Positions 45,883 through 52,898 of a DNA stretch of 64,000 nucleotides are shown piece by piece. The number at the start of each line of letters is the position of its first letter. The first letter of the stretch is position 1. Both the position numbers and the translations under genes were made by a program. Location of the stretch: contig NZ_NHRY01000076.1 of assembly GCF_002937115.1 (NCBI RefSeq), forward strand, positions 1 through 64,000, written 5' to 3'. The notes under the pieces were generated by a model. The model ran no database searches, was not told where the DNA came from, and saw nothing but the letters and a program-made list of their open reading frames with translations. Source of the DNA: Rhodopila globiformis. GTDB lineage: Bacteria > Pseudomonadota > Alphaproteobacteria > Acetobacterales > Acetobacteraceae.

Positions 45883-47082
45883 CTACGGCAACGTCTGGTA
45901 CCGCCGTGCCCAGTCCGCCCGCCAGCCTGGAAGGTCCGGGCCTGGCATCGGGCGGCCGATGAGATAGCCCTGGATCATGTCGCAGTCGGTGCCGCGCACG
46001 TACAGCCAGTCGTCCGGATCCTCCACGCCCTCGGCAACCGTCTTCAGGCCCAGTTGCCGCGCAATGCCCAGGCTGGCATCGAACATCGCCTGCAACGCCG
46101 GGTCGCCGGCCGCGCCGTGCACGAAGCCGCGGTCGATCTTCAGCTCGCTGAACGGCACGTCGCGCAGTTGCGCCAGCGACGAATGACCGGTACCGAAATC
46201 ATCAATCGACAGGCCAACGCGCTTCAGCCGCAGCCGCGTCAGGATGTCCAGCGAGGTCACCCGGTCGCGCATCAGCTGGCTCTCGGTAACCTCCAGCACC
46301 AGTCGTTCCGGTGCCATACCGGCGGCCGCCAGCCGATCGGCGACAAGGTTCGGGAAATCCAGCGCCAGCAGGTTGGCCATCGAAACGTTGACGGCGACAT
46401 CAAGCCGCAGGTCCGTATCCTGCCAGGCACGGGCCTGGTGAAGCGCTTGCTCCAGCACCGCCTGTGTCAGGTCGTCGATCAGTCCAGACCGTTCCGCAAG
46501 GGGCACGAACTGGTCCGGGAACACCAGCCCGTCCGCCGGATGCTGCCAGCGTACCAGGCACTCGACTCCAGTCAGCGCCCCGTCTGCGCGGCCGACCTTG
46601 GGCTGGAAGTGACAGACCAGTTCTCCGTCCGCAATGCCGCGGCGCAGATCCTCCGGCCGATAGATCCTGCCGGGTGCCGCGCGCGCGGGGTGGCTTGTCG
46701 GGATAAGGGTCTCCCACCGGTGCAATAAATCCCGCAGGCGATCCAGCGCAACCGGTTTCTGCAGGGCACCCAGAACGTTCAGGCAGTGCGCGGCGGCCAG
46801 TCGTTCCGCGGTCTGCAGGATGCGCCGGTCCTCGCCGCTGACCAGCGCCAGCGCGCCGTTGTAGCCCAGTTGCCCCAGTTGGCGGATCAGTTCGATGCCG
46901 TCCATTTCCGGCATCTGCAGGTCGCACAGGATCAGGCAATCGTTGCAGCCATGCGCCTGCAGCGCGGCCAGTGCATCCTGCGCGCGCTCGAAACAATGGA
47001 CGTCGATGACCCCAAGGCGGCCGAGTTGGCGCGACAGCAGGCTGCGGGCGAAGGCATCGTCGTCGATGATCAGAGCTGTCAT
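45883..47082 (-). CDS. Response regulator with EAL (c-di-GMP phosphodiesterase) output domain
   Basis: 399 aa. N-terminal receiver with phospho-acceptor Asp54 (LILCDLQMPEMDG) and Lys109. The EAL domain starts near residue 140 with the signature variant ECLVRW (Cys for the usual Ala), then NVSMANLL, LEVTESQL, SIDDFGTGHSSLAQL, KIDRGFV and TVAEGVED: the metal and catalytic residues look complete. Predicted to hydrolyse c-di-GMP when phosphorylated. Its ATG overlaps the stop of the hybrid kinase (ATGA), making it the last gene of the kai operon and the likely output. Confidence 0.86.
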   Translation of the reverse strand: MTALIIDDDAFARSLLSRQLGRLGVIDVHCFERAQDALAALQAHGCNDCLILCDLQMPEMDGIELIRQLGQLGYNGALALVSGEDRRILQTAERLAAAHCLNVLGALQKPVALDRLRDLLHRWETLIPTSHPARAAPGRIYRPEDLRRGIADGELVCHFQPKVGRADGALTGVECLVRWQHPADGLVFPDQFVPLAERSGLIDDLTQAVLEQALHQARAWQDTDLRLDVAVNVSMANLLALDFPNLVADRLAAAGMAPERLVLEVTESQLMRDRVTSLDILTRLRLKRVGLSIDDFGTGHSSLAQLRDVPFSELKIDRGFVHGAAGDPALQAMFDASLGIARQLGLKTVAEGVEDPDDWLYVRGTDCDMIQGYLIGRPMPGPDLPGWRADWARRYQTLP

Positions 47083-50000
47083 GATGTCCCGCTTGTGGCG
47101 CCGCGCGGCCGGTGCTCCAGTTGGTCGCCAATACGCTCCTGCACCGCGGCCATGGCGGCGGAGAATGTTGGCAGACACGCCGGGACCGCGTTTAGATCGC
47201 CGGCATTTCCGGCCTGCTCCAGGACTGCGCAGATCTCGCCCAGAAGCAGCGCCCCGACCGCGCGCGACGATGATTTCAGTCTGTGGGCGACGGCGCCGAC
47301 GCGCGCGGCATCGCCGTCCGCGGCCGCCTGTGCCAACTCGCCCGCCAGGCGTTCCGCCGATCGGCTGTAGTCGGCGAGGATCGCGGCGATCACGTCGGGA
47401 TCATCGCCCACGATCGCGGCCAGCGTATGACTGTCGAATGCCGCCGGCGCGGCGGCGGGCGCCGCCACGTCACCGCCGGTGGCCGCCTGTGGCGAAGGCG
47501 CGCCCGACAGCACGTCCTGCAGCGCCGCGTGCAGGTCGCGCAGCAGCGTCGGCTTGGTCAGGTATGCATCGATACCAATTGCGCGGGCCCGCTCGGCTTC
47601 GCCGCGCAGAGCGTTGGCGCTGAGTATCACGACGGGAGTCCGCCGCGCGCCGGCCTCTTCCTGCCGGATCGCCGTGGTCAGCTGGTAGCCGTCCATGTCC
47701 GGCATGGAGACATCGGTCAGCACCAGGGCGTAGTGCCCGCCTCGCCATTTTTCCAGCGCCTCGCGCCCGTTGCTGGCCGTTTCGGCAGCGTATCCCAGCA
47801 GGTTGAGCTGGCGCAGGATCACCGTCCGGTTGATTTCGTCGTCCTCGGCCAGCAGGATCAGTCGTCCCTGGGCGCGGGCCTCGGCCACCGTCGGCGGTGG
47901 CGCCGCCGGCAGCAGCGCGCCGATTGGCTTTGCCGCGGCCAGGGCGCTGCGGGGCAGGCGTCCGGCTGCGGCGGCCACCGCGCGCAACAGCGCTTCGTGC
48001 CGCATCCATCCCAGGTCGAGCCCGGTCTCGTCGCCAGGGTCCAGCCAGGCCCGCCAACGCTGCGCGCGGCGCAGCAGAAGCCAGTGGACATGGGCCGGCG
48101 CGGCGGCATCGTTGCGTGTCCGTCCGGCATCGTGGATCACCACCACCGTGCCGCCCAGCGTCCGCGCCAGGGCCATCGCCGCCGCCGGGTCGGCCGCCGC
48201 GTGCACATACGCTCCGCCGGCGGAGAGATAACGTTTCATGTCGGCCGCATCGGGGCTGTCGGCGCTCCAGGCCAGGACGCAATCGATGCCCGACAGGTCC
48301 GGCATGGCCGCCACCGGCCGATCGGCGATTTCGAACGGAAGAGTAATGGTGAAGGTGCTGCCTGCCCCCGGCGCGCTGGCCACCGCGATGCCGCCCTGCA
48401 TCAGGTCGATCAGGCGCCGGGTGATGGCAAGCCCCAGCCCGGTGCCGCCATAGCGGCGCGTGGTCGAGGTTTCGGCCTGGGTGAACGGCGTGAACAGCCG
48501 ACCCTGCGTTTCTGCCGACATGCCGATGCCGTTGTCGACAACGCAGATACGGATCCGCAATGGCGTTGCCTGCGCCACGTCCACCCGGATCGTTACGCGG
48601 CCTTGGATCGCGGGCCGTCCGGCGCTGAACTTGATGGCGTTGCCTGCGACGTTGAACAGCACCTGGCGCAGCCGCGTGGGATCGGCCAGCAGCCAGCGTG
48701 GACATTCCGGTGCAATAACGGCAGACAGATCGACGCGCTTGTCCAGGGCGATCGGCGCCAGAGAATTGCAGACGTCCTCGACGAGTTCCGCCAACGCGAC
48801 CGGCGCGCGGTCCAGGTCCAGCCGCGCGGCCTCGATCTTGGAAAAGTCGAGGATGTCGTCGATCAGCATCATCAGGTTGATCGCCGAATCGCGGATGATC
48901 CCCACCGCCTCGGCCTGGCGCGGCTGCAAGTGGTCCAGCGCCAGCACCTCGGCCATGCCGATGACGCCGTTCAGCGGGGTGCGAATCTCGTGGCTCATCA
49001 TGGCCAGGAAAGAGGACTTCGCGCGATTGGCTGCTTCCGCCGCGTCCCTGGCCTCACGCAGTTGCGCCTCGGCCAGCTTGCGGCTGGTTAGGTCGCTGTG
49101 CGTGCCGACGATACGGGCCGGCATGCCGGCCGCATCGCGTTCCACCACCTTGGCGCGGCTCAGAATCCAGCGGTAGCTGCCGTCACGGCTGCGCACGCGA
49201 AACTCCGCTTCGCAGGTGCCATTCGTTGCAAAACGCCGCAGGTTGTCGCGCACAATCGCGTCCCGATCCTCGGGATGCAGCAGCGCGAGCCAGGCATCTA
49301 CATGCGGAACGAAGCCTTCCGGCATGTAGCCCAGCATGCTCAACCAGGACGGGCTGAAAGTAATTGCGCCCGTTGTGACGTCCCAGTCCCAGATGCCGTC
49401 GCTGCTTGCCTCGGCCGCGTGGGCATAGCGTTCCTCGCTGACCCGTAGCCGTCGATTGGCCTCTTCGAGCGCGCTGGTCCGTTCCCGTACGAGGCGTTCC
49501 AGATGCGTGCGGTACAGCGCCAGTTCCTGTTCAGCTTTCTTACGATCGCTGACGTCGCGCATGCTGCAATACAGCAGCCGGCCGCCCGGCAAATCGGCCA
49601 CGCGGTTCATGACTTCGGCGTCGAACAGCGTGCCGTCGCGCCGGCGGATCCGGGTCTGCACCAGCGGCGAGTGCGCCATTGATGCGCGCAGCCGGCGCCA
49701 TGCGACCTGGTCGTCGAAGTTCACGTCCCAGTCCCAGACATGCGAGCCCAGGACTTCGCTGCCCGACGCCCGCAACATGGCCATGAGGCGGGAATTGGCA
49801 TCGATCAGGCACCCGTCGTCCGTAACGACTGCGATACCATCGGCGGCGCGGTCGAACAGGGTGCGGTGCTTCTCCGCCTCGGCTGCCAGCAGCGCGGTCT
49901 GCTCGGCAACGCGCTGTTCGGTTCGCCGCCGTTCCGTCAGGTCGGTCATGCCGCCAATCAGCCGTACCGGCTTGCCGAAGGCGTCGCGGATTACCTGTAC

Positions 50001-50873
50001 GCGGTGCAGGACATAGGCATATTCGCCGTCCCACCGCAGGAAACGATATTCGGCCGACCACGATGTTGCATCTCCATCCATCGCCCGGTGGATGCCGGCG
50101 ACGATGCCGGCGCGGTCGTCGGGATGGATCCGGTGCCGCCAAGCGTCGGTCGTCGGGCTGTCATGCTCGCGGCTGAGCCCGGTCAGGGTTTCGAAACTGT
50201 CGCTCCACCACATTGTGCCGGCGTTGCGATCCCAGTCCAGGATGGCGTCGTTGGTTGCGTTCGACAACAGCCGGAAACGCTCCTCGCTGGCACGTAGCGC
50301 CTGCTCCGCCAGTTTGCGGCGCGTAATGTCGATGTGCATCACCACCGCGCCCTCGGCGTCGCCGTTGCCGAGCGGGGTGACGATCAGGTGGAACCAGCGC
50401 TGCTCGTCCGGGGCGTGGCAGGGATATTCGTTGTCGAAACGCGGAGCTTTCCGGCCGATGACGGCGCGGATGCCGGCCGCGACAGCCGCCGCCTCGGCGG
50501 CGCAGTCGCCGGTCGCCCGGTCGCAGACGTCGAGATAGTTCTCGCCGGCACCAAACTCCGGCGAGGGGTAGCTGTTTGCAATCGCAAAGCAGCGCCAGGT
50601 CTCGTTGACGACGACGATGTGGCCTTGCGCATCCAGCAGCGCGATGTGGGCGGGCAGGGCGTTCAGGATCGAAGCTCGTTCGGTGGCGAAACGGCGCTGC
50701 TCGTGCTCGCTGTGGCGCAGATGCGCCTGGGATGCAGGCAGCAGATAGGTGGCGCCGGAGTCGGCATCCAGCACGGCATCGACACTGCCGCCGGTCAGCG
50801 CCTGGATGCGCTGCTGCGTTTCGTGCAGGACATGGACGAGGCGGGTCAGTTCTTGTGGCGGGGCATCGAACAT
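47079..50873 (-). CDS. Hybrid sensor histidine kinase: 4 PAS-HisKA-HATPase-REC-HPt
   Basis: 1264 aa, cytoplasmic (no membrane segment). About four PAS/PAC modules (60-190, 195-320, 335-460, 485-610), then HisKA with SHEIRTPLNGVIG (His near 627), HATPase with NAIKFSAG, VDNGIGM and GGTGLGLAI, a degenerate receiver-like stretch, a true receiver with VLTDVSMPDMDGY (Asp near 1054), and a C-terminal HPt with AHRLKSSSRAVGA (His near 1197). A complete phosphorelay in one chain that can pass phosphate to the downstream receiver-EAL protein. It begins 14 bases after kaiB, an arrangement seen in kaiC-kaiB-kinase operons of other Alphaproteobacteria. Confidence 0.9.
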   Translation of the reverse strand: MFDAPPQELTRLVHVLHETQQRIQALTGGSVDAVLDADSGATYLLPASQAHLRHSEHEQRRFATERASILNALPAHIALLDAQGHIVVVNETWRCFAIANSYPSPEFGAGENYLDVCDRATGDCAAEAAAVAAGIRAVIGRKAPRFDNEYPCHAPDEQRWFHLIVTPLGNGDAEGAVVMHIDITRRKLAEQALRASEERFRLLSNATNDAILDWDRNAGTMWWSDSFETLTGLSREHDSPTTDAWRHRIHPDDRAGIVAGIHRAMDGDATSWSAEYRFLRWDGEYAYVLHRVQVIRDAFGKPVRLIGGMTDLTERRRTEQRVAEQTALLAAEAEKHRTLFDRAADGIAVVTDDGCLIDANSRLMAMLRASGSEVLGSHVWDWDVNFDDQVAWRRLRASMAHSPLVQTRIRRRDGTLFDAEVMNRVADLPGGRLLYCSMRDVSDRKKAEQELALYRTHLERLVRERTSALEEANRRLRVSEERYAHAAEASSDGIWDWDVTTGAITFSPSWLSMLGYMPEGFVPHVDAWLALLHPEDRDAIVRDNLRRFATNGTCEAEFRVRSRDGSYRWILSRAKVVERDAAGMPARIVGTHSDLTSRKLAEAQLREARDAAEAANRAKSSFLAMMSHEIRTPLNGVIGMAEVLALDHLQPRQAEAVGIIRDSAINLMMLIDDILDFSKIEAARLDLDRAPVALAELVEDVCNSLAPIALDKRVDLSAVIAPECPRWLLADPTRLRQVLFNVAGNAIKFSAGRPAIQGRVTIRVDVAQATPLRIRICVVDNGIGMSAETQGRLFTPFTQAETSTTRRYGGTGLGLAITRRLIDLMQGGIAVASAPGAGSTFTITLPFEIADRPVAAMPDLSGIDCVLAWSADSPDAADMKRYLSAGGAYVHAAADPAAAMALARTLGGTVVVIHDAGRTRNDAAAPAHVHWLLLRRAQRWRAWLDPGDETGLDLGWMRHEALLRAVAAAAGRLPRSALAAAKPIGALLPAAPPPTVAEARAQGRLILLAEDDEINRTVILRQLNLLGYAAETASNGREALEKWRGGHYALVLTDVSMPDMDGYQLTTAIRQEEAGARRTPVVILSANALRGEAERARAIGIDAYLTKPTLLRDLHAALQDVLSGAPSPQAATGGDVAAPAAAPAAFDSHTLAAIVGDDPDVIAAILADYSRSAERLAGELAQAAADGDAARVGAVAHRLKSSSRAVGALLLGEICAVLEQAGNAGDLNAVPACLPTFSAAMAAVQERIGDQLEHRPRGATSGTS

Positions 50874-50887
50874 GCGACTGGTTCCGA

Positions 50888-51181
50888 TCAGACCGCGTCG
50901 GGCGCGATGCCGAGCGCATCGAGCACGGCCGACGGTTCCGTCAGGTCACCGGCGATGGCCAGGATCGGCGCTTCGGCGGCGACGACGAGATACGGCGTCA
51001 TCAGCACGCCGTCGGCGAGCGCCCGCTTCGGGTTTTCGAACACGTCGACTATTTCTATACAGGAACAGTCCGCCAGGTGCCGGCGGCAGAGCGCCGTCAG
51101 GTTGCCGATGGCGCGTTGGGAATTGGGCGCCTGGCCGGCGACGTACAGCCTGAACGTGAACGGACGGACTGCGTCATGCAT
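50888..51181 (-). CDS. kaiB: KaiB-family clock protein
   Basis: 97 aa, full length for KaiB. FTFRLYVAGQAPNSQRAIGNLTALCRRHL, quoted by its ends, gives the thioredoxin-like N-terminal half, and IEIVDVFENPKRALADGVLMTPYLVV matches the KaiB strand-helix with the TP motif. KaiB binds the KaiC CI ring and, in cyanobacteria, sequesters SasA/CikA partners. The ATG (51181) lies inside the end of kaiC with 8 bases of overlap, so translation is coupled. An ATG 18 bases upstream in the same frame is possible. Confidence 0.88.
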   Translation of the reverse strand: MHDAVRPFTFRLYVAGQAPNSQRAIGNLTALCRRHLADCSCIEIVDVFENPKRALADGVLMTPYLVVAAEAPILAIAGDLTEPSAVLDALGIAPDAV

Positions 51182-52898
51182 CACAGGCTGCTCCCGCATC
51201 GGGCTTCTGTGGCGTGTCGGCGGTCCGCAGCGCCCGCAGTTCGGCTTCGGCGCGGGCGATGTCGGTGGTGCGCTCGGTCTCCGCCTCGGAAAGCGTCTGG
51301 CGTTCGTTGACGTTGGCGGCAATTTCGCGCTGCAATGTCCTGAGCCGCACCTCGAGCTCGGCAGCCTGGGATTCGAGGACGAGGCGGCGCTGCGCGGCGG
51401 CGGCCGAGCGCTCGGCGTTGGCCAGACGCTCGGCGCGTTCCCTGGCCCACCGCTGGGCGCCCATCAGCACCTCGCCGCCGGCGGTATAGACATCGGTCAG
51501 CGTGACGCCGGCGCTGCTCAGCAGCAGTTCGCGCACCTGGTTGGAATGGCCGGTGCCGCGGGCCTTGACGATGGAAATGCCGCGGTTTCGCTCGCCGGCC
51601 TGGATCACGTAGCTGAGGTGGATCCAGGTGTCGGCGACGGTCGAGATCTGCAACGGTGTTCCGTCCGAATCCGGAATGGCGCGGTCCAGCAGGCTGGTGC
51701 ACACCAGTGTTATACCCTCGGCCTTGGCCCAGTCCACCAAGCGTTCCGCGACGCTGTGCGCGGTGGTGCGGTTGCCGGATTTCGACAATGCGGAAAGCGG
51801 ATCAATCACGACGCAGCGCGCGCCGTGCGCACGCGCCATGGTCGTTATTTGCATGAGATGGATTTCCGCGCTGCCGCTACTGCCGCGCGCCGAGGCCATG
51901 CGCAGCAGGCCGCAATCGACGGCACCGCCCAGGTGAACGCCGACCGAGGAGAGGTTGCGGATCAGCTCGTCGGAGCGGGAATCGAAGCTGACGAACAGGG
52001 ATTTTTCGCCCCGCCGGCACGCGGCCTCGACGAAGGCGCCGCACAGCGTGGTCTTCGCTGTGCCCGGCGCGCCGGTCAGCAGCACGCTGGCGCCGCGGAA
52101 ATAACCGCCGCCGAGCATGGTATCCAGACGCTCGACGCCGCTGGAAACGCGTTCGTGGCTGGCGGGACAGTCGGTTTCCAGGCTGGAGGTGTAGGCGACG
52201 TCGATGCCGCCGGGGCCGATGAGGTACGGCACCTCGTTTTCCTCGAAGCCGGAGCCGCGGTACTTGACGATCCGCATGGTACGCTGCGACGTCCCGTCCA
52301 TCAGTTCGTGGCCGAGGACGATCGAGCAGTCCACCATGAACTGCATGAAGTCGAGCACCTTGGGCGTGCTGTCTTCCCAGTCGTGGGAGTACACCTTGGC
52401 GGTGACCAGCGCGGTCAGGCCGCGGCGCAGCAGCCAGTCGTGCAGGCGGTAAAGCTCCTGGCGGATCTGCGCGGCGTCGCGCATCAGCACGAGAATGACG
52501 TCGATGGCGTCGAAGACGATCCGCTTCGCGCACAGTTCCTCGGTCTTGGCCTGCAGCATGGCGAGCATGCCGCCGAGATCGAAAGCGCCGGACAGGATCA
52601 TGTCGTGGTTGGGCTGGGCGTCGAAGAAGAACAGCTGCCCGGGTTCCAGCGACGCCACCTGCCAGTCGAATTTCCCCGCGTTGGCGAGGATGCGGCGGGA
52701 GTTTTCCTCGAACGCAACGAATATGCCGGGCTCGCCGTCGCGCGCGCCGTTGATCAGGGTCTGCAGCGCGAACACCGTCTTGCCGGATCCGGCGTTGCCG
52801 GCCAGCAGTGTGGCGCGGCCCCGCGGCAGGCCGCCGCCGGACAGCGCGTCGAAGCCGCGGATTCCGGTCGGGGTCTTGATCAGCGTTTCGGTTGTCAT
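51174..52898 (-). CDS. kaiC: KaiC-family ATPase/autokinase
   Basis: 574 aa, duplicated RecA-like domains. CI: Walker A GNAGSGKT (34-41), paired Glu in FEENSRRI (64-65). CII: Walker A GAPGTAKT (276-283), phosphosites S419-T420 in the conserved ISTVADT context, matching S431-T432 of cyanobacterial KaiC. The CII paired glutamates (E318/E319 there) are Asp306-Ser307 here (FDSRSDELIRN). The tail beyond about 475 is a long charged coiled coil, unlike the KaiA-binding tail of cyanobacteria; no kaiA is present. First gene of the operon. ATG 52898 (MTTETL) is preferred over 52910. Confidence 0.9.
   Translation of the reverse strand: MTTETLIKTPTGIRGFDALSGGGLPRGRATLLAGNAGSGKTVFALQTLINGARDGEPGIFVAFEENSRRILANAGKFDWQVASLEPGQLFFFDAQPNHDMILSGAFDLGGMLAMLQAKTEELCAKRIVFDAIDVILVLMRDAAQIRQELYRLHDWLLRRGLTALVTAKVYSHDWEDSTPKVLDFMQFMVDCSIVLGHELMDGTSQRTMRIVKYRGSGFEENEVPYLIGPGGIDVAYTSSLETDCPASHERVSSGVERLDTMLGGGYFRGASVLLTGAPGTAKTTLCGAFVEAACRRGEKSLFVSFDSRSDELIRNLSSVGVHLGGAVDCGLLRMASARGSSGSAEIHLMQITTMARAHGARCVVIDPLSALSKSGNRTTAHSVAERLVDWAKAEGITLVCTSLLDRAIPDSDGTPLQISTVADTWIHLSYVIQAGERNRGISIVKARGTGHSNQVRELLLSSAGVTLTDVYTAGGEVLMGAQRWARERAERLANAERSAAAAQRRLVLESQAAELEVRLRTLQREIAANVNERQTLSEAETERTTDIARAEAELRALRTADTPQKPDAGAACDA

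Follow-up and report, generated by a model that had tools for sequence, protein, structure and literature searches.

Introduction

An association of kaiBC genes with GGDEF- and EAL-domain neighbours was stated as early as 2011 (PMC3164672), and the KaiBC system of Rhodobacter sphaeroides has been described as hourglass-like (PMC10076222). Altered levels of cyclic di-GMP (c-di-GMP) were reported to shift the Synechococcus clock, and in the in vitro experiment described in the same source added c-di-GMP left the rhythm of KaiB-KaiC binding unchanged (PMC13001216, 2026). Here we analyse a four-gene operon of Rhodopila globiformis, made up of kaiC, kaiB, a hybrid histidine kinase gene and a gene for a response regulator with receiver (REC) and EAL domains. 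It lies within a stretch of 64,000 nucleotides (assembly GCF_002937115.1, contig NZ_NHRY01000076.1, positions 1 to 64,000), hereafter the window, from a genome of 7.25 Mb in 278 contigs. The literature searched, a body that most subscription journals fall outside, gave no description of kaiBC genes in one operon with an HPt-bearing kinase that serves a REC-EAL protein.

What is new here, judging by aligned KaiC sequences, is that the window KaiC is one of a few in which the active site of the second ATPase domain, CII, is altered (GTAK in the Walker A motif and aspartate for the first catalytic glutamate). Whether a KaiB/KaiC-gated phosphorelay sets the c-di-GMP level is a proposal to which we give even chances; Kai-gated control of c-di-GMP is plausible, and its timing is not supported. 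An operon with an input, a relay and a measurable enzyme output makes KaiBC control outside the cyanobacteria directly testable, and the altered CII site offers a natural way to ask whether KaiC can work without any phospho-cycling.

Results

The window KaiC contains two KaiC ATPase stretches (Pfam PF06745, 287 bits, cut-off 26.6) and scores above the cut-off of one NCBIfam model (NF006799, 471.5 bits against 408) and below that of another (TIGR02655, 266 bits against 546). Its closest solved structure is R. sphaeroides KaiC (8dba, 338 bits), and its C-terminal tail extends about 95 residues past position 480, compared with 93 in the R. sphaeroides protein. The first ATPase domain, CI, is intact, with the Walker A motif GNAGSGKT and the catalytic Glu pair in VAFEEN. 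The CII Walker A motif reads GAPGTAKT, which departs from the GxxxxGK[TS] pattern, and the CII catalytic Glu-Glu is replaced by D306-S307; the Ser/Thr pair of the phospho-site is retained as S419-T420 in ISTVADTW. D306 and S307 fall in the column of residues E318 and E319, an assignment made through locus L148, whose Glu pair aligns with positions 318-319 of a solved KaiC (7dy1). For all cyanobacterial KaiC groups, the Glu pair and the Walker A motif have been reported to be present (PMC5520375).

Among 56 aligned KaiC rows, GTAK occupies the CII Walker A position in eight, and the first CII catalytic Glu is Asp in ten, namely the eight GTAK rows, the CII half of L087 (Walker A GGPGTAKT in its first open frame) and the distant L051. 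Serine at the second position is found in the window and in Fodinicurvata, whose KaiC also has Ala at the second phospho-site. The remaining rows retain Glu-Glu except L130, L103 and L051 (a statement covering 53 rows of one KaiC alignment, with L185 aligned separately), and R. sphaeroides KaiC retains both residues. In the CII tree the window and Fodinicurvata sequences group with a printed support of 0.993, and the wider group, which has weak inner support, is recovered in both trees; the trees had been re-rooted before these values were printed, and each could be off by one node. The altered-CII group comprises nine members: the window, Fodinicurvata and genomes G231, G352, G073, G477, G478, G840 and G842. 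Because its CII catalytic Glu pair is Asp-Ser, the window KaiC is more likely to act as an ATPase or conformation switch than as a phosphorylation timer, as far as its residues can tell. The accompanying KaiB is divergent: it matches Pfam PF07689 (45.5 bits, cut-off 27) and solved KaiB chains in the PDB, and it stays below the NCBI clock-KaiB equivalog cut-offs (48 bits against 110 and 145).

The third gene encodes a kinase in which Pfam identifies four PAS stretches (approximately 70-187, 199-311, 345-443 and 504-592), HisKA (618-682), HATPase (731-848), REC (1006-1118) and HPt (1165-1246). With HisKA, HATPase, REC and HPt in a single chain and the motif residues H628, D1054 and H1197, it has the composition of an unorthodox hybrid kinase. 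Its N-terminal 195 residues share 50% identity with the kaiBC-linked kinase of Fodinicurvata, and its catalytic stretch 25%. Residues 850-1004 gave no Pfam match at E up to 10, and their alignment to a REC profile by hhalign reached a probability of 5.9%, compared with 0.1-2.5% for five shuffles and four other domains and 99.3% for a true REC. This stretch had been considered as a candidate pseudo-receiver on which KaiB might dock, by analogy with CikA (PMC12632262). As a separate candidate we considered PAS1 as a Kai-specific reader, and this was rejected in its strong form, PAS1 being a member of an ordinary PAS family.

The fourth gene product consists of REC (residues 4-120) and EAL (144-378) domains by Pfam. 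By motif, the receiver has D54 and K109, and the EAL domain has the catalytic positions E174, N232, E264, D294, D295, K315, E351 and Q371. We take the motif residues of both proteins to have their customary relay and catalytic roles. The EAL domain aligns with MucR and RocR chains in the PDB; RocR, the second-best match, aligns to residues 3-381 and is the best of those spanning both domains. The top NCBIfam model is PvrR, with 279 bits against an equivalog cut-off of 580, which it does not reach. The protein is predicted to be an active c-di-GMP phosphodiesterase, and together with the kinase it presents a His-Asp-His-Asp set that is complete on paper. The four-PAS hybrid kinase with HPt and the REC-EAL protein with Asp54 had both been proposed in an earlier sequence-only reading of this DNA, and the Pfam domains and motif residues bear them out. 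REC-EAL proteins of 40-43% identity are present in five of the 20 congeners searched; a hybrid kinase gene directly adjoins them in two (G010 and G019) and lies about 3 kb away in two more (G008 and G006), while in the last (G002) the contig ends. Domain searches found no kai genes in these five stretches.

The four genes run head to tail from 52898 to 45883 (Table 1). When re-derived from the sequence, the minus-strand arrangement and its junctions came out exactly as the sequence-only reading had given them: an 8-base overlap between kaiC and kaiB, a 14-base gap between kaiB and the kinase gene, and an ATGA overlap between the kinase and REC-EAL genes. Because four long coding frames of known families are joined by overlapping or near-touching junctions, the arrangement is not due to chance, and the operon is real and coherent. 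It is flanked by a P450 gene on the opposite strand and a gene for a beta-lactamase-fold protein. The GC content and third-position GC content of the four genes resemble those of the flanks, giving no sign for or against a recent foreign origin. No KaiA gene lies within the operon, the part of the genome searched for KaiA. A scan for promoter-like sites returned 0, against 0.8 in shuffles, and is uninformative either way.

Table 1. Positions of the operon genes and of the shared kinase N-terminus in the window
Feature	Coordinates	Strand	Description
kaiC	52898..51174	minus	574 residues
kaiB	51181..50888	minus	97 residues, divergent KaiB
Hybrid histidine kinase	50873..47079	minus	1264 residues: leader, four PAS, HisKA, HATPase, unassigned 850-1004, REC, HPt
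Kinase residues 1-198 (leader and PAS1)	50278..50873	minus	about 50% identity to the Fodinicurvata kaiBC-linked kinase
REC-EAL response regulator	47082..45883	minus	399 residues, PvrR/RocR-like predicted c-di-GMP phosphodiesterase

Relatives were sought with KaiB queries (59 relatives and 385 genomes of the class), with the REC-EAL protein (35 genomes including 20 congeners, E up to 1e-70) and with KaiC. The KaiC query was run against a species-contig collection that reaches close relatives only (127 pattern matches, one relative), against 61 genomes of the Fodinicurvata order (E up to 1e-60; eight matches, one of them the contig-end fragment G429) and against nine genomes of the G231 order. 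The complete four-gene set was not found elsewhere in the genomes and contigs searched. The best other KaiB among the 385 class genomes has 44% identity, and the nearest relative of the operon is that of Fodinicurvata fenggangensis (L054), a kaiC-kaiB-kinase run with a KaiC of 58% and a KaiB of 47% identity and a kinase of 706 residues in which no HPt was found. Nine congeners possess a different KaiB: in eight, a gene for a kinase or a PAS-domain protein comes after kaiC-kaiB-kaiB, and the ninth locus, on a short contig (L194), is limited to kaiB, a PAS gene and a receiver. None of these nine loci yielded an EAL gene.

Within the altered-CII group, the partner genes vary. In G840 and G842, which share a genus with G231, kaiC (45%) and kaiB precede a gene for a kinase with a PAS1-family domain and REC; in G231 a PAS1-PAS-GGDEF-EAL gene is followed by kaiC in two frames and then kaiB. 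G478 has GGDEF-EAL, kaiC and kaiB genes in a row, G352 and G073 have a histidine kinase-REC gene upstream of kaiC-kaiB, and G477 has no signalling neighbour. Across the nine loci, the kaiBC run thus includes an EAL gene in three, a hybrid kinase gene in six (the window in both counts) and neither in one. The kaiC-kaiB-kinase order is kept in four loci (the window, L054, and L183 and L184 from one genus), and EAL proteins stand beside related kaiC genes in other architectures at L087 and L126.

Several individual kaiC genes deserve mention. That of G231 (L087:6900-8469) spans two overlapping reading frames; those of G840 and G842, which have the kinase instead, are intact. Elsewhere in the R. 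globiformis genome, contig C197 (L050:6801-8663) carries kaiC-kaiB-kaiB-kinase with the first KaiC domain spread across different frames, owing either to disruption of the gene or to faulty assembly. Contig C245 (L051:6765-10050) carries a third kaiC-like gene, with no kaiB, followed by a HisKA-HATPase-REC gene, an arrangement resembling the kaiC-kinase pairs described for Ramlibacter (PMC3164672).

To place the linkage to c-di-GMP genes in a wider frame, 52 kaiB loci were surveyed. An EAL gene lies in the same-strand signalling run in four (the window, L087, L126 and L159) and a GGDEF gene in 16. Removing the window, five loci reached via Fodinicurvata (L054, L125-L128) and three congeners (L140-L142) left 43, of which 15 have GGDEF near kaiB. 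The expected number was 0.94 and 0 of 200,000 simulations reached 15, the expectation being based on genome-wide GGDEF/EAL counts and signalling-run length, with no random kinase-locus control, and signalling genes clustering in general. Counted by family, EAL occurs in 2/24 and GGDEF in 7/24. Six further loci from the same KaiB search include two with GGDEF, so that GGDEF or EAL linkage is found in 17 of the 49 loci from KaiB searches, and in 18/66 of all kaiB loci other than that of the window, when congeners and similarity-chosen loci are counted in. The 43-locus count draws on 29 of the 35 genomes with KaiB; five others add one GGDEF and no EAL, and G536 has GGDEF and no EAL. Locus L104 (G199, a weak KaiB match), in which a profile search found no kaiB, was left uncounted; L129 is a duplicate of L100, and L130 has no kaiB. 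Some loci are cut off by the end of a contig or have kaiB but no kaiC (L135 and L143 among them). The sequence-only reading had called an operon that joins a Kai timer to a c-di-GMP phosphodiesterase not well described, which was too strong, because linkage of kaiB loci to GGDEF or EAL genes recurs here and was in print in 2011. To judge from this recurrence, c-di-GMP may be a widespread output of Kai proteins beyond the cyanobacteria.

In loci of other classes, kaiB-kaiC-kaiB-GGDEF-kinase is a frequent arrangement. A run of kaiB-kaiC(-kaiB) with a nearby GGDEF gene and a kinase recurs in several families of the phylum (L145-L152, not all, and L154, L155, L160, L189 and L197), with a diguanylate cyclase beside kaiBC in place of a phosphodiesterase. 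On the conjugative plasmid pRPC2 of Rhizobium sp. BG4 (L167:5977-13413), the run of kaiC, kaiB and an HWE kinase gene continues on that strand with a hypothetical gene and then one for an EAL-domain protein.

Discussion

In the mechanism that we propose, KaiC together with KaiB would most likely change conformation with nucleotide state, as an ATPase ring. The two proteins may then influence the kinase, whose conserved leader-PAS1 N-terminus is the likeliest point of contact, and phosphate would pass from H628 to D1054, H1197 and finally D54 of the REC-EAL protein, where phosphorylation would either raise or lower phosphodiesterase activity. The path from KaiB/KaiC through kinase and HPt to the EAL protein had been put forward by the sequence-only reading, and it is consistent with the coupled genes, the complete set of relay residues, the predicted phosphodiesterase and the N-terminus shared with a kaiBC-linked kinase. 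Its further statement that c-di-GMP is timed is not supported, because CII is altered at residues needed for the Synechococcus rhythm. Also in favour of the gated relay are the PAS1-family domains of the kinases that follow kaiC-kaiB in G840 and G842 (one genus) and of the PAS-GGDEF-EAL protein beside kaiC in G231, the GGDEF-EAL gene adjoining kaiC in G478, the frequency of GGDEF near kaiB far over expectation, and the REC-EAL/hybrid-kinase pairs of congeners G010 and G019, which have no kai gene in the stretch. Because the kinase N-terminus is like that of Fodinicurvata while REC-EAL relatives occur without kai genes, similarity suggests that a kaiC-kaiB-(leader-PAS1) input module of the kind seen in Fodinicurvata has here been combined with a relay and output resembling PvrR/RocR.

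A number of results weigh against such gating. The window-type kaiB, and with it the operon, is absent from all 32 congeners (0/32, several of them incomplete drafts, down to 64% complete), and no EAL gene was found among the open reading frames tested beside kaiBC in Fodinicurvata. The sequence-only reading had named a lack of conservation of the EAL gene with kaiBC in relatives as a refutation of its view, and in this narrow sense conservation fails. EAL genes near kaiB are only marginally above expectation (2/43 loci against 0.36, P ~0.05), and the six further loci have none. In the kinase, Pfam gave no match to a KaiB-fold (SasA-like) domain. AlphaFold modelled residues 1-198 as helices plus a PAS fold, with a mean predicted local distance difference test (pLDDT) score of 67.7 (leader below 60; two sequences); Foldseek (E up to 0.001) matched this model to PAS, LOV and sensor proteins and a few uncharacterised entries, with no KaiB or thioredoxin names among the best 50 of 112 matches, the leader being of low confidence. 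The N-terminal query matched 31 of 385 genomes (R. globiformis included), mainly through the PAS part; identity to PAS1 goes up to 55% in kinases that have no kai neighbours, and kai-linked PAS1 copies do not cluster together in the tree. A kinase on the Methylosinus trichosporium plasmid pOB3b1 (L055:5410-7701) has a leader-PAS1 N-terminus resembling that of the kinase in the window (39% across residues 8-191), and the 12.5 kb seen of this plasmid contain no kai gene. Finally, the neighbours PvrS and PvrR of Pseudomonas aeruginosa showed no interaction in the two-hybrid assay reported in PMC3842833, which may serve as a warning against reading phosphotransfer from gene order, adjacency being no proof.

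KaiB and KaiC might instead form a true daily or hourglass timer of c-di-GMP through CII autophosphorylation, as proposed for kaiBC of Rhodopseudomonas palustris and R. sphaeroides. The best solved relative, with its similar tail, comes from an hourglass-like system (PMC10076222), and both S419-T420 and the CI Glu pair are in place. However, the kinase activity of Synechococcus elongatus KaiC has E318 as its catalytic Glu, both E318D and E318A abolish the rhythm, and a magnesium ion is coordinated by E319 (PMC2777353); the window has Asp and Ser at these positions and GTAK in the CII Walker A motif, Fodinicurvata has Ala at the second phospho-site, and R. sphaeroides KaiC retains the Glu pair. 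Of all the evidence, this altered active site, as read from the alignment, speaks most strongly against a phosphorylation timer, which we consider unlikely, although a Glu-to-Asp change in another KaiC need not act as it does in S. elongatus, and S419-T420 are retained. Equally unlikely in our view is a PvrR-type pair of kinase and REC-EAL protein that works independently on PAS signals of its own, with kaiBC no more than a co-expressed neighbour. The REC-EAL relatives of five of 20 congeners, two directly beside a hybrid kinase and none with a kai gene found, would fit such a pair, as would a PAS1 that is not exclusive to kai loci; the overlapping or near-touching junctions throughout, the leader-PAS1 common to a second kaiBC-linked kinase with a different catalytic half, and the kaiC-kaiB-kinase order of four loci argue against it.

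A special case of the gated relay, in which a KaiC that no longer phospho-cycles signals energy state or stress and the EAL protein alters surface attachment under energy limitation, strikes us as improbable; the intact CI ATPase motifs beside an altered CII are in keeping with it, as is the stress-response role mentioned for Legionella pneumophila KaiC2 (PMC5520375). More broadly, and tentatively, the KaiC group may have given up the standard CII kinase centre to act as a KaiB-gated ATPase switch, and may have been wired to c-di-GMP more than once by swaps of partner genes (PAS1 hybrid kinase, HPt relay to REC-EAL, PAS-GGDEF-EAL), with kaiC, kaiB and often a PAS1-family domain kept; we hold this somewhat doubtful.

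Among known systems, R. palustris and R. sphaeroides KaiBC (PDB 8DBA, 8FWI) have in common with the window a one-strand kaiC-kaiB-kinase order, a long KaiC tail and, in the cluster described, the absence of KaiA (PMC4794148). In contrast, the third R. sphaeroides gene encodes an HWE kinase, no relay to an EAL protein is present in the stretch seen, and its KaiC retains both CII Glu residues where the window has Asp-Ser. The loci of PMC3164672 likewise have kaiBC adjoining a c-di-GMP enzyme gene, but its section 17 places GGDEF/EAL proteins beside kaiC or kaiB and describes no REC-EAL output with a separate HPt-bearing kinase. Fodinicurvata L054 resembles the window in KaiC (58%), KaiB (47%), the kinase N-terminus (50%) and the same CII Asp-Ser change, and differs in its 706-residue kinase with a dissimilar catalytic half and no HPt found, and in having no EAL gene among the neighbouring frames tested. 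Hybrid kinase genes paired with REC-EAL phosphodiesterase genes, as in the window, are known in P. aeruginosa as PvrS/PvrR, and RocS1/RocR of the same species is also a hybrid kinase/REC-EAL pair; unlike the window, neither has kai genes. Whereas PvrS, as described in PMC3842833, is without an HPt of its own, the window kinase carries one.

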